Shown here: piece by piece, positions 24,942 through 29,456 of the stretch | Numbering within the stretch: the stretch's first letter is position 1 | How the letters are laid out: the number at the start of each line of letters is the position of its first letter | Origin: Actinomycetota bacterium | GTDB taxonomy: Bacteria > Bacillota > Desulfotomaculia > Desulfotomaculales > Desulfocucumaceae | DNA length: 37,345 nucleotides | Direction of reading: 5' to 3' | Assembly (NCBI GenBank): GCA_023475565.1 | Contig: JAMCVT010000088.1 | Coordinates: 1 to 37,345, forward strand | Translations under genes and position numbers: made by a program | The notes under the pieces: model-generated | The model's input: the letters and a program-made list of their open reading frames with translations, nothing else | What the model was told of the DNA's origin: nothing | Database searches by the model: none

Positions 24942-26213
24942 TTAAAAGCTCCTTATAAACATCCCGGCCTTTTCGCTGTCCAGGAAGTCTTGTATGTCTT
25001 CAATGCCCAGACTTTTTAAAAGCTCCATAACATACCTGTTGTCAACCGGGGTGTGAGAGCAGGCGTCGCTGCCATATTCCTCTACGAGGTCTCTGCCTTT
25101 TTCAGGGTCGATGAGTACTTTCGGCCCGCCTACGCAGCCGCCGCTGCAGCCCATCCCTTCAAGGAAATTTGCCTCTATTTTTCCTTCCAGCACTTCTTTT
25201 AGAAGCCTCCTGCAGTCCTGAACACCGTCAGCCTGCAGGGACTTTATTTTTATATTCCTTTCGGGTCTTATCCTGTTCAGGGTGTCTGAAACCGCCCGGC
25301 TTACCCCGCCGGTCCTGGCGTATATCCTGCCCGCACGGGAGGAGTGCTCGCTCTCGTCCTCCTCCAGTTCGGCGGGGTTAATGCCCACCGCCTCAAATAT
25401 CTGCTCCAGCTCTTTAAAGGTAAGCACTGCGTCCACGGCATCCTTTATATCGGGCTCTTTGGCCTCGGCCTTCTTGGCTATGCAGGGGCCCACAAAAACC
25501 ACCTTCGATCCCGGGTGAAGGTGCTTTATGCCCCTGCCGCAGGCCGTCATGGGCGAAACCGAGGGGGATATATGGGGAACCAGATCCCTGTACACCCGTT
25601 TGACCATGGACACCCATATGGGGCAGCAGCAGCTTGTCAGCAGGAAGTCACTGTCCCGGGTAACCTGCCTGTCGAATTCCAGCGCCTCCTTTAAGGTCAG
25701 TATGTCGGCGAAAAGGGCCACTTCCACCATTCCGTAAAACCCAAGCCTTTTAAAGGCTGCCCTCATTTTACCGGGTGTGACCCCTGGTCCGAACTGTCCT
25801 ATAAAGGCCGGGGCGACAATGGCGAATACGGGTATCTTGCGGTCTTTAAGCATATCTATAAGGGGGACGAACTCCTTTTTGTCCACCAGTGAGTAGTCCC
25901 GGCACACCTCTACGCACCTGCCGCACCCGGAGCAGTTGCTCTGCTTTATAATTACATTGCCTTCCATGTCCCTCACTATGGCGTTAAATAGGCACGAGGC
26001 CTCGCAGTTTTCCTCCCTGCCGCAGGCGCCGCTGCAGTCTTTCACCTTAAAAACAACTTTGTCGGGTTCACCTCCCCCCGAGGCGTAAAGAATTAAATGG
26101 TCAGTGGTATCCCCGCCCCTACTGCGGATCTTTTCTTTTTCCCCGGGCATTGTGCCCTGGTAGGCGGACTTTACCATTCTCTTAAAAATAGCATCATAAT
26201 CCGGGCCGGTCAT
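24942..26213 (-). CDS. [FeFe]-hydrogenase-like protein with two N-terminal Fe-S clusters (non-canonical H-cluster motifs)
   Basis: LLTSCCCPIW, VGPCIAKKAEA, EGMGCSGGCVGGP; N-terminal CX3CX5CX3C and CX2CX2CX3C. Confidence 0.88.
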   Translation of the reverse strand: MTGPDYDAIFKRMVKSAYQGTMPGEKEKIRSRGGDTTDHLILYASGGGEPDKVVFKVKDCSGACGREENCEASCLFNAIVRDMEGNVIIKQSNCSGCGRCVEVCRDYSLVDKKEFVPLIDMLKDRKIPVFAIVAPAFIGQFGPGVTPGKMRAAFKRLGFYGMVEVALFADILTLKEALEFDRQVTRDSDFLLTSCCCPIWVSMVKRVYRDLVPHISPSVSPMTACGRGIKHLHPGSKVVFVGPCIAKKAEAKEPDIKDAVDAVLTFKELEQIFEAVGINPAELEEDESEHSSRAGRIYARTGGVSRAVSDTLNRIRPERNIKIKSLQADGVQDCRRLLKEVLEGKIEANFLEGMGCSGGCVGGPKVLIDPEKGRDLVEEYGSDACSHTPVDNRYVMELLKSLGIEDIQDFLDSEKAGMFIRSF

Positions 26214-26391: not shown

Positions 26392-27207
26392 ATGAGCCTT
26401 TTTACAGTTGACCGGAGCAAGTGCAAGAAGGACGGGATTTGCGCGGCCGTGTGCCCGCTAAGAATTATCTCAATGGGTGAGGACGGGCTTCCGTTTATGC
26501 CGGACGGGGCTTCCTGCATAAACTGCGGACACTGCGTATCGGTCTGCCCCCAGGGAGCGGCCACACTTAAAACAATGAACCCTGCTGACCTGGTTATGGT
26601 TCAGGACAAACTTCTCCCCGGCCCCGAACAGGTGGCGCACTTTCTGGCTGCCAGGAGGTCCATCAGGTCCTATAAAGACAAGCCGGTGGATCGTGAAACT
26701 CTGGAAAGGCTGATAGGCATCGCCGGGGTTGCGCCATCCGGCCATAATGCACAGCCGGTTCACTGGCTGATGGTGGAAGACGCAGGCGAGGTAAGGCGCC
26801 TTTCGGGCCTGGTAATTGACTGGATGCGCCAAATGATTAAAGAGAGGCCGGAAGTCGCCGGGCCTATGGGAATGAGGGCACTTGTGGCGGCATGGGAGAT
26901 GGGACTGGACAATATCAGCCGCCGGGCCCCCCATGTGGTGCTGGCCCATGGGCCCAAAAAACTTGGCGTCACGCGGGACTCCTGCATTATAGCTCTTACC
27001 TACCTGGAGCTTGCCGCATATTCCATGGGGCTGGGGGCCTGCTGGGCCGGTTATCTGGGAACCGCCGCCGCAGTTTTCCCTCCCCTGATAGAGGCACTGG
27101 GCATTCCCGGGGAGCACCGCGTTTTCGGCGCCATGATGCTGGGCTATCCCAGGTTTAAATACCAGCGCATACCCCGGCGCAAAGAGCCGTCGGTAAGCTG
27201 GAGATAG
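26392..27207 (+). CDS. Nitroreductase family protein with N-terminal ferredoxin domain
   Basis: CKKDGICAAVCP...CINCGHCVSVCP; RRSIRSYKDKPVDRETLERLIGIAGVAPSGHNAQPVHW. Confidence 0.93.
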   Translation: MSLFTVDRSKCKKDGICAAVCPLRIISMGEDGLPFMPDGASCINCGHCVSVCPQGAATLKTMNPADLVMVQDKLLPGPEQVAHFLAARRSIRSYKDKPVDRETLERLIGIAGVAPSGHNAQPVHWLMVEDAGEVRRLSGLVIDWMRQMIKERPEVAGPMGMRALVAAWEMGLDNISRRAPHVVLAHGPKKLGVTRDSCIIALTYLELAAYSMGLGACWAGYLGTAAAVFPPLIEALGIPGEHRVFGAMMLGYPRFKYQRIPRRKEPSVSWR

Positions 27208-27249
27208 TTTTTTGCAGAGGGTGCTAGACAAGTAAAAATACAGCTTCGC

Positions 27250-27290
27250 AGGGCTCGTAACCTTAATTGGTCATGAGCCTTTTTGTTGAT
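27250..27290 (+). terminator. Terminator-like hairpin after nitroreductase gene
   Basis: GGCTCGTAACC-ttaatt-GGTCATGAGCC followed by TTTTT; one wobble and one mismatch. Confidence 0.6.
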
Positions 27291-27331
27291 GTTTATTACC
27301 ATAAAGAAGCTGTATGAGGGGACGCCTCCAG

Positions 27332-27368
27332 ATAAAATTTATTGATTTGTTTAATCAATAAATTTTAT
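27332..27368. promoter_or_regulatory. Perfect 16-bp AT-rich palindrome upstream of the dehydratase/activase operon
   Basis: ATAAAATTTATTGATT-tgttt-AATCAATAAATTTTAT. Confidence 0.6.
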
Positions 27369-27410
27369 ATATAATCGCGGTGATTTAATTTTTAAAAGGA
27401 GGTGTTTTCC

Positions 27411-28682
27411 ATGTCCGGCGATTATCGAAAAATGTGGGAGTCCATCGGACTTGATTTAGAGGCCCATGACCGGCTGCTGCAGGCACTGCCGCCAGCTTAC
27501 GGGGAGGTATACCTGACCCAGGAAAACCGCCCGGCTATGGATTATTTCGATTTTGTGGTCAACGAAATACACGGGCTGCGCATTCAGGAGCTTCAGGAGC
27601 ACAAAGCCCGGGGCGGCAAGGTGATAGGTACCTTTTGTGTTTTTGTTCCGGAGGAAATTATCCGCGCGGCCGGGGGGATTTGTATCGGGCTGTGCTCCGG
27701 GATAGAAATAGGGTCTGCCCAGGCCGAGAAGGTCCTGCCCAGGAGTATCTGCCCCCTGATCAAGTCGTTTATGGGCTTCAAGCTGGCCAGGGTTTGCCCC
27801 TATTTTGAGTCCTGCGACATGGTGGTGGGGGAAACCACCTGTGACGGTAAAAAGAAAGCCTTTGAAATACTAAATGACTATGTCCCCGTCCATGTGCTGG
27901 AAGTGCCCCAGATGAAGCGTGAAAAGGACCGCCTCCTGTGGCGGGGCGAGGTGGGTGATTTCCTCGCCGGCGTTGAGGAAGTGACCGGAAACAGGGTTAC
28001 GGCTGAGTCACTGGCCCGCTCAGTAAGGGAGGTGAACGGCAAGCGCAGGGCCCTGGCCCGTCTGGCCGGTCTGCGCAAAAACAGCCCCGCCCCCATCAGT
28101 GGAAAAGACAGCCTGCTGATTGAGCAGATAGCCATGTATGACGATGTGGAAAGGTTTACTCTGAAAGTAAACCAGCTCTGTGATGAGCTGGAAAAAAGGG
28201 TCAGGGAAGGGGTAGGCGTGCACAGGCCCGGCGCGCCGCGCATTATTGTCACAGGCACCCCGATGGCCATTCCCAACTGGAAGGTGCCCCACATAATAGA
28301 GGGCAGCGGGGCGGTCATTGTGGCCGAGGAGCTTTGCACCGGACTGCGCTATTTTGAAAATACCGTTCCGGAAGAATCTGAAAGTATGGAACAGTCGCTG
28401 GGGACTATAGCAGACAGATATATGAACATAAACTGCGCCTGCTTCACCCCGAACACCGGCAGGATGGAAAAGCTTGTCCAGCTGGCCGAAGAGTATAATG
28501 CGGACGGTATTATACACTGCTCTCTTTCCTTCTGCGATCCTTATATGATTGAGGCCAACCGGGTGGAAAAGATGCTTAAAGAAAAAGGCATACCCATGCT
28601 GAAGATAGAGACCGATTATGGGCAGGAAGATGTCGGCCAGCTTAGGACCCGGATTGAGGCCTTCCTGGAAATGATCGGGTAG
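27411..28682 (+). CDS. 2-hydroxyacyl-CoA dehydratase D-component family protein (HgdB-like; candidate double-cubane cluster protein)
   Basis: RGGKVIGTFCVFVPEEIIRAAGGICIGLCSG; SCDMVVGETTCDGKKKAFEIL; GIIHCSLSFCDPYM; LKIETDYG; paired with activase. Confidence 0.88.
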   Translation: MSGDYRKMWESIGLDLEAHDRLLQALPPAYGEVYLTQENRPAMDYFDFVVNEIHGLRIQELQEHKARGGKVIGTFCVFVPEEIIRAAGGICIGLCSGIEIGSAQAEKVLPRSICPLIKSFMGFKLARVCPYFESCDMVVGETTCDGKKKAFEILNDYVPVHVLEVPQMKREKDRLLWRGEVGDFLAGVEEVTGNRVTAESLARSVREVNGKRRALARLAGLRKNSPAPISGKDSLLIEQIAMYDDVERFTLKVNQLCDELEKRVREGVGVHRPGAPRIIVTGTPMAIPNWKVPHIIEGSGAVIVAEELCTGLRYFENTVPEESESMEQSLGTIADRYMNINCACFTPNTGRMEKLVQLAEEYNADGIIHCSLSFCDPYMIEANRVEKMLKEKGIPMLKIETDYGQEDVGQLRTRIEAFLEMIG

Positions 28683-28691
28683 GGGGATATT

Positions 28692-29456
28692 ATGCTGAGC
28701 GCCGGAATAGACATAGGCTCCAGGACTATTGCACTGGTGGTCACCGACGGGAAAGAAATTGTACAGTCAGCGGTTGTCGATACCGGCTTCGACCCTGCCA
28801 AAAAAGCGGCGGAAATGGCTGCCGGGCTGACGCAGGCAGTGCCTGTGACAGCTACGGGCTATGGCAGGCACTCGGCCAAAAACGGATTTGCCGGCCATGT
28901 CATTACAGAGATAAAGGCCCATGCCCTGGGCGCGGGCCGCCTTTTTCCCGGGGCCGGGACAGTGCTGGACATTGGCGGGCAGGATATGAAGGTTATACTG
29001 CTGGACGCCAAAGGGAATGTGGAAGACTTCCAGATGAATGACAAGTGCGCGGCCGGGACAGGCAAGTTCCTGGAAGTTATGGCCGGGGCCCTCGGTTATG
29101 GTTCGGTTGAGGATTTTGGCAGGGACTCTCTGACTGGAGCCCCGGGAACCAGAATAAGCAGCATGTGTACTGTTTTTGCGGAGTCGGAGGCGGTTTCCCT
29201 GGTGCACCGGGGGACTGACCGGCGTGACATAGGCAGGGCGCTGCATGCCTCGGTGATTGAAAGGGCCTTTGGGCTCATTCAGCGGGTGGGCTGTGCCGCA
29301 CCCCTGGTCTTTACCGGGGGTGCGGCTCTGAATCCCTGTGTTGTGCAGCTGTTGAGGGAGAGAATAAAGGGGCCGGTGCTTATCCCTGGCGATCCCCAGT
29401 TGGTGGGTGCTTTGGGGGCAGCCTTGAGCGGCCTGGAAAACAAGAATCAGCAGTAA
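28692..29456 (+). CDS. Acyl-CoA dehydratase activase (HgdC-like, ASKHA ATPase)
   Basis: GIDIGSRTIALVV; TGYGR; EIKAHALGA; LDIGGQDMKVI; MNDKCAAGTGKFLEVMA; FTGGAALN. Confidence 0.95.
   Translation: MLSAGIDIGSRTIALVVTDGKEIVQSAVVDTGFDPAKKAAEMAAGLTQAVPVTATGYGRHSAKNGFAGHVITEIKAHALGAGRLFPGAGTVLDIGGQDMKVILLDAKGNVEDFQMNDKCAAGTGKFLEVMAGALGYGSVEDFGRDSLTGAPGTRISSMCTVFAESEAVSLVHRGTDRRDIGRALHASVIERAFGLIQRVGCAAPLVFTGGAALNPCVVQLLRERIKGPVLIPGDPQLVGALGAALSGLENKNQQ

Follow-up and report, generated by a model that had tools for sequence, protein, structure and literature searches.

The window, the whole 37,345-nucleotide stretch of DNA analysed here, carries a gene for a double-cubane cluster protein (DCCP) that is followed, 10 bp further 3′, by the start of a gene for an ASKHA-type activase (Table 1). 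An earlier note on this DNA had described an HgdB-like protein directly upstream of its activase, and both open reading frames were recovered at those positions. For the first gene, a start at the GTG at 27402, which would lengthen the frame, is less probable, because the ATG at 27411 has an AGGAGG Shine-Dalgarno sequence. The genes next to the pair encode neither a second HGD-D subunit nor a CoA-transferase, in keeping with the note's description of a locus that lacks separate alpha/beta dehydratase subunits and a CoA-transferase. The remaining HGD-D and activase genes of the window genome sit on other contigs. Contig C33 holds a paired two-gene HGD-D locus (L002/L004) and contig C14 another HGD-D locus that has its own activase (L003/L005); this genome has such dehydratase/reductase-like systems alongside the DCCP. 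Upstream of the pair lie two further redox genes. The ferredoxin part of the ferredoxin-nitroreductase has seven cysteines, arranged as C-x5-C-x3-C followed by CxxCxxCxxxC; a classical 2[4Fe-4S] ferredoxin has one more. The hydrogenase-like frame contains the H-cluster-type motifs TSCCCPIW, GPCIAKK and GMGCSGGCVGGP, and scores 323 bits against the group B model TIGR04105, under the cut-off of 450.

Table 1. Genes and predicted regulatory features of the DCCP locus (window positions)
Feature	Position	Strand	Basis
FeFe-hydrogenase-like ORF	24942-26213	-	ORF
Ferredoxin-nitroreductase	26392-27207	+	ORF
Terminator-like hairpin, GGGCTC..GAGCC then TTTTT (tentative)	27251-27284	+	Sequence and RNA fold of 27205-27412
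LysR-type box 1, ATAAAATTTATTGAT, one mismatch to ATAA-N7-TTAT	27332-27346	+	selD-site PWM
Putative -35, TTGTTT	27347-27352	+	17 bp before the -10; TTGNNN conserved there in orthologs
LysR-type box 2, ATCAATAAATTTTAT, one mismatch	27354-27368	+	Palindrome; 22 bp after box 1
Putative -10, TATAAT	27370-27375	+	Part of conserved motif 27345-27375
Shine-Dalgarno of DCCP gene, AGGAGG	27397-27402	+	8 bp 5′ of ATG; sequence
DCCP gene, 423 aa	27411-28682	+	NF040772, 6ENO match, six ligand Cys, tree
ASKHA-type activase (probable DCCP reductase), 254 aa, NDKCAAGTGKFLE	28692-29456	+	TIGR00241, 7yyl_E, Cys positions

Pfam, NCBIfam and PDB searches are concordant for the first gene of the pair. Its product matches NF040772, 'double-cubane-cluster-containing anaerobic reductase', at 498.3 bits (cut-off 350, E = 1.3e-149) and PF06050 at E = 5.7e-126. 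The best solved matches are the two C. hydrogenoformans DCCP entries, 6ENO and 7YYL (E about 1e-156; 7e-157 for 6ENO). Cluster ligands were assigned by alignment to BzdN, in which six cysteines, Cys36, Cys73, Cys100, Cys263, Cys293 and Cys327, hold the [8Fe-9S] cluster (PMC11971306). These align with C76, C114, C144, C309, C344 (or C342) and C375 of the window protein; the double-cubane cysteine set, whose absence the earlier note had named as one thing that would refute its reading, is complete, with a cysteine at all six positions. For the fifth ligand, the alternative C342 is invariant and C344 varies in 9 of 111 sequences. A tree built by a quick method and with long outgroup branches sets the window protein within the long-form DCCP clade together with 6ENO (84 rows, SH-aLRT 99), and a short-form clade with E. 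coli YjiM stands beside it. Family model, solved matches, cysteine map and tree all agree with the layout of DCCP plus ATP-dependent reductase that the note had proposed. That the two frames form a DCCP system is close to certain, and the DCCP is an ordinary member of its family. NF040772 is matched above its cut-off in 81 of the 113 genomes of the same order, and 80 named orthologs were collected with 54-94% identity to the window protein, the nearest from Peptococcaceae bacterium BICA1-7 (94%), followed by those of Desulfocucumis, Pelotomaculum and similar genomes.

The activase matches TIGR00241 at 207.5 bits (cut-off 125.4) and retains both cluster cysteines, C119 and C159. The solved DCCP reductase (DCCP-R), 7yyl_E, is matched at E = 7e-45 and 157 bits, with MbdQ, HgdC and HadI scoring slightly higher, and the activase tree leaves its relation to C. 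hydrogenoformans DCCP-R without resolution. A dedicated activase as an obligatory DCCP neighbour was rejected, since about half of the sampled long-form DCCPs (32 of 61) have no activase directly downstream; genomes without an adjacent dedicated activase have other activase types. Pelotomaculum and its relatives (L048, L052, L054-L058, L060, L061, L063-L065, L067, L071 and L074) encode DCCP orthologs of 73-82% identity with all conserved cysteines present and no activase directly downstream. Their genomes have no close orthologue of the window activase and encode members of another activase clade, often some kilobases off. At these loci the dedicated activase looks to have been lost or replaced.

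Judged from its sequence, the DCCP gene has its own conserved promoter, separate from the nitroreductase gene, with paired LysR-type boxes that flank the putative -35 element. The terminator-like hairpin, which a consensus terminator scan did not report, may tentatively close the upstream nitroreductase unit. The two boxes together make up a perfect palindrome, 27332-27368, with 16-bp arms. The leader (27205-27412) folds far better than shuffled sequences do (z -5.2), pairing the Shine-Dalgarno sequence to the upstream GGGGACGCCUCC, which would mask it. A riboswitch or other RNA element was considered here and rejected, because Rfam gave no match for the leader and its fold is not conserved in L042, the 94%-identical ortholog of the sister species; the palindrome is likewise not common to that ortholog. 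The palindrome is better read as two putative LysR boxes than as an RNA element.

Similar promoter sequences recur across the order. Close DCCP orthologs have ATTTGNNNNATNNNNNWNNNYTATATAYAAT in common upstream. With at most one mismatch, this motif has 26 matches in the 113 genomes of the order, against three for a backward control pattern. All eight exact matches lie directly upstream of a long-form DCCP gene. Among those with one mismatch, G013:C79, G019 and G079:C31 also precede DCCP genes, and two others, G097:C65 and G098:C12, sit just 5′ of selD. A related motif, ATAAAAAYAATNNATTNNNNNRATAAAGG, is found at DCCPs without a neighbouring type-A activase. Its five exact matches across the order are all at DCCPs, and weaker ones precede both long and short forms. 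The search for ATAAAAAYAATNNATTNNNNNRATAAAGG allowed three mismatches, at which the backward control also matches and many of the weakest matches will be due to chance. The genes downstream of 39 selected non-DCCP matches were inspected, and among these the motif precedes SelD (TIGR00476) six times and YedE (TIGR04112) five times. It also stands before a DUF3343-sized frame accompanied by YedF and a cysteine desulfurase family protein, before an MtaA-like methyltransferase and before a C-GCAxxG-C-C protein; Sec-lyase-like genes are likewise among those preceded by the DCCP-type motif.

HdrA- or MvhD-like genes follow ATAAAAAYAATNNATTNNNNNRATAAAGG about ten times among the 39 selected non-DCCP matches (L233, L235, L236, L239, L240, L242, L243, L249, L264 and L265), and these may belong to the same regulon as the DCCP. 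At L238/L058 the motif stands before two ADP-ribosylglycohydrolase-like genes accompanied by an ABC ATPase, and at L247 before a periplasmic-binding-like protein, again with an ABC ATPase; judged from their sequences, these genes may have a role in uptake or salvage of a selenium compound.

The two motifs have in common a LysR-type box, ATAA-N7-TTAT (T-N11-A) or a near match to it, which often appears as two copies spaced by exactly 22 bp. Of 60 DCCP upstream regions, 32 have an exact box within 300 bp, whereas dinucleotide shuffling gave a mean of 2.6 and a maximum of 7 over 200 rounds. For selD the count is 18 of 40 (shuffle mean 1.7, maximum 5). As a background, 15 of 197 other intergenic upstream regions from the window and close loci carry an exact box, and several of these 15 are themselves upstream of selD, Sec-lyase-like, HGD-D or activase genes. 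Fisher tests against this background give p = 1.6e-13 for DCCP and 5.6e-8 for selD, values that overstate the significance because the genomes are related. The motifs were first spotted by eye in DCCP upstream regions and then tested on selD. A weight matrix (PWM) derived from DCCP promoters alone scores significantly at 17 of 40 selD promoters. In the reverse direction, selD sites of other genera gave a PWM that selects box 1 of the window (p = 0.004, 500 shuffles). Both window boxes are one base off the exact sequence; exact boxes with the same 22-bp spacing are found in G010, G038, G041 and G110. Boxes of this type, whatever their spacing, are present in G041 and in G037 and G038, the latter two having DCCPs that group with the C. 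hydrogenoformans protein; a 22-bp pair is seen in G038 and G041.

Gene neighbourhoods likewise point to selenium. The window genome encodes a Sec-type selD with an in-frame TGA (G000:C37:3290-4210), with yedF downstream of it and an exact box at -196. Because selD is near-universal in the order (107 of 113 genomes), its presence or absence is no test there. In G098, selD, a long DCCP, a short DCCP and an activase follow in succession with yedE near by, and in G096 selD lies one gene upstream of the DCCP. In other Clostridia, whose orthologs are 54-60% identical, a small DUF3343-type protein follows the DCCP in 34 of 46 loci, assigned to that family (PF11823, 'Se_S_carrier') by length, sequence and position. 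A cysteine-desulfurase-family gene is often also found at these loci, and a LysR gene at two. PF11823 is absent throughout the window's own family, and DUF3343 as an obligatory DCCP partner was rejected for that reason. Among 14 control genomes, NF040772 and PF11823 each exceed their cut-offs only in E. coli and M. jannaschii. On the promoter and neighbourhood evidence, the DCCP operon likely belongs to a selenium-responsive LysR-type regulon.

A selenium link of DCCP is not new; earlier papers drew it provisionally, through gene neighbourhood, as in the provisional linkage of DCCP to selenium in PMC10418091. Lin et al. 2015 (PMC5322559) proposed LysR_Se, YedE, YedF and DUF3343 as selenium genes. 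In the STRING table of that paper the top partners include a 2-hydroxyglutaryl-CoA dehydratase subunit as well as a CoA-substrate-specific activase; the searched text discusses these two no further and gives no operator. Under CO, DCCP and DCCP-R are reported to go down, and their unit includes a LysR gene (PMC7306483). In archaea, the LysR_Se protein HrsM represses Cys-encoding isogenes at adequate selenium (PMC11097638). The searched portions of PMC5322559 and PMC11097638 contain no bacterial LysR_Se operator motif and do not list DCCP among the members of the regulon. An operator shared by DCCP and selD, with statistics, was not found in the literature searched, a body of work whose scope leaves the main DCCP papers outside.

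Membership of the superfamily PF06050 is common to DCCPs and to true 2-hydroxyacyl-CoA dehydratases and benzoyl-CoA reductases, and the slightly better activase scores to MbdQ, HgdC and HadI than to DCCP-R could suggest that the pair is a component of such an enzyme with its activase. The DCCP sequence makes this scarcely credible. It scores far under all cut-offs of the dehydratase and benzoyl-CoA reductase models (for NF052456, 2-hydroxyacyl-CoA dehydratase, 122 bits against 700), HadC has no Cys at window positions 76 and 309 in the alignment, and no partner subunit or CoA-transferase adjoins the pair. The tree, which the note had named as a check, places the window protein with DCCPs and away from HadC, MbdN and BzdN as well as from the HGD-D paralogues encoded in the same genome. 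The note had further proposed that the pair, the ferredoxin-nitroreductase and the FeFe-hydrogenase-like protein form a low-potential reduction module. This reading draws on the sister species L042, where the gene order is kept, and on G027, a third species of the genus, which has neither DCCP nor nitroreductase, a single event of weak weight. Across 80 orthologous loci, the co-occurrence check that the note had suggested finds both neighbours next to the DCCP in L042 only, and the arrangement is absent from the other 79. In other genomes of the window's family, the nitroreductase homologue (50-62% identity) and the DCCP are on different contigs. With these separate contigs, the synteny and the separate DCCP promoter all against it, the four-gene module was rejected as very improbable. 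Associations of the DCCP with selenium genes, which were not visible to the note, have better support.

A stronger competitor is a DCCP/DCCP-R pair of unrelated function that reduces azide, hydrazine or acetylene-like compounds, with the boxes belonging to another LysR regulator or reflecting an AT-rich promoter style. No activities of DCCP other than small-molecule reductions of this kind have been reported (PMC11971306, PMC7306483), the AT content of the promoters here is high (63%) and neither window box is an exact copy. Against this, box frequency is far above both shuffled sequences and real intergenic background, and the non-DCCP motif matches are strongly enriched in selenium genes. 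We regard the unrelated function as unlikely, though clearly less so than the other two alternatives, and the two genes as probably a two-component ATP-driven reductase of the selenium regulon.

By analogy with C. hydrogenoformans, an activase dimer would accept electrons from ferredoxin or a similar donor and would couple ATP hydrolysis to their injection into the [8Fe-9S] cluster, after which the DCCP would reduce a small molecule. The regulatory and neighbourhood evidence suggests that this operon would be part of the selenium regulon, with a LysR_Se/HrsM-type protein as its probable regulator, and that its role may be to acquire or reduce a selenium (or sulfur) compound or to cope with selenium shortage. 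A selenium or sulfur substrate for the DCCP is a reasonable conjecture, held tentatively. Equally tentative is the fuller proposal that the DCCP supplies SelD by reducing a selenium (or sulfur) compound and that paired ATAA-N7-TTAT boxes at 22 bp are the LysR_Se operator. DCCPs, with their nitrogenase-like double-cubane cluster, are found from E. coli to methanogens and have no known natural substrate (PMC11971306). Should the promoter evidence hold, it names a condition (selenium status), a likely regulator class and partner genes for testing. If true, the proposal would bring an enzyme without a role into selenium metabolism and supply a candidate bacterial operator for the proposed selenium regulator LysR_Se.

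Among known systems, the DCCP and DCCP reductase of C. hydrogenoformans (6ENO, 7YYL) have the same two-gene layout and the same six inferred ligands, and their DCCP is 55% identical to that of the window across 419 columns; unlike the DCCP, the window activase is not clearly the orthologue of its counterpart by score or tree. E. coli YjiM/YjiL also belongs to the NF040772 family, with an adjacent activase and cysteines at all ligand positions, but YjiM falls in the short-form clade, is 37% identical and is about 40 residues shorter (383 versus 423 aa). BzdN of class I benzoyl-CoA reductase (8S02), whose double cubane is an electron-storage site (PMC11971306), resembles the window protein in that its six [8Fe-9S] ligands map onto window cysteines, yet it is only 27% identical and forms a heterodimer with BzdO. 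With the proposed LysR_Se/HrsM selenium genes (PMC5322559, PMC11097638), the likeness lies in the promoters: the order's DCCP and selD genes have promoter boxes in common, and yedE, yedF, DUF3343 and Sec-lyase-like genes have a related motif in front of them.
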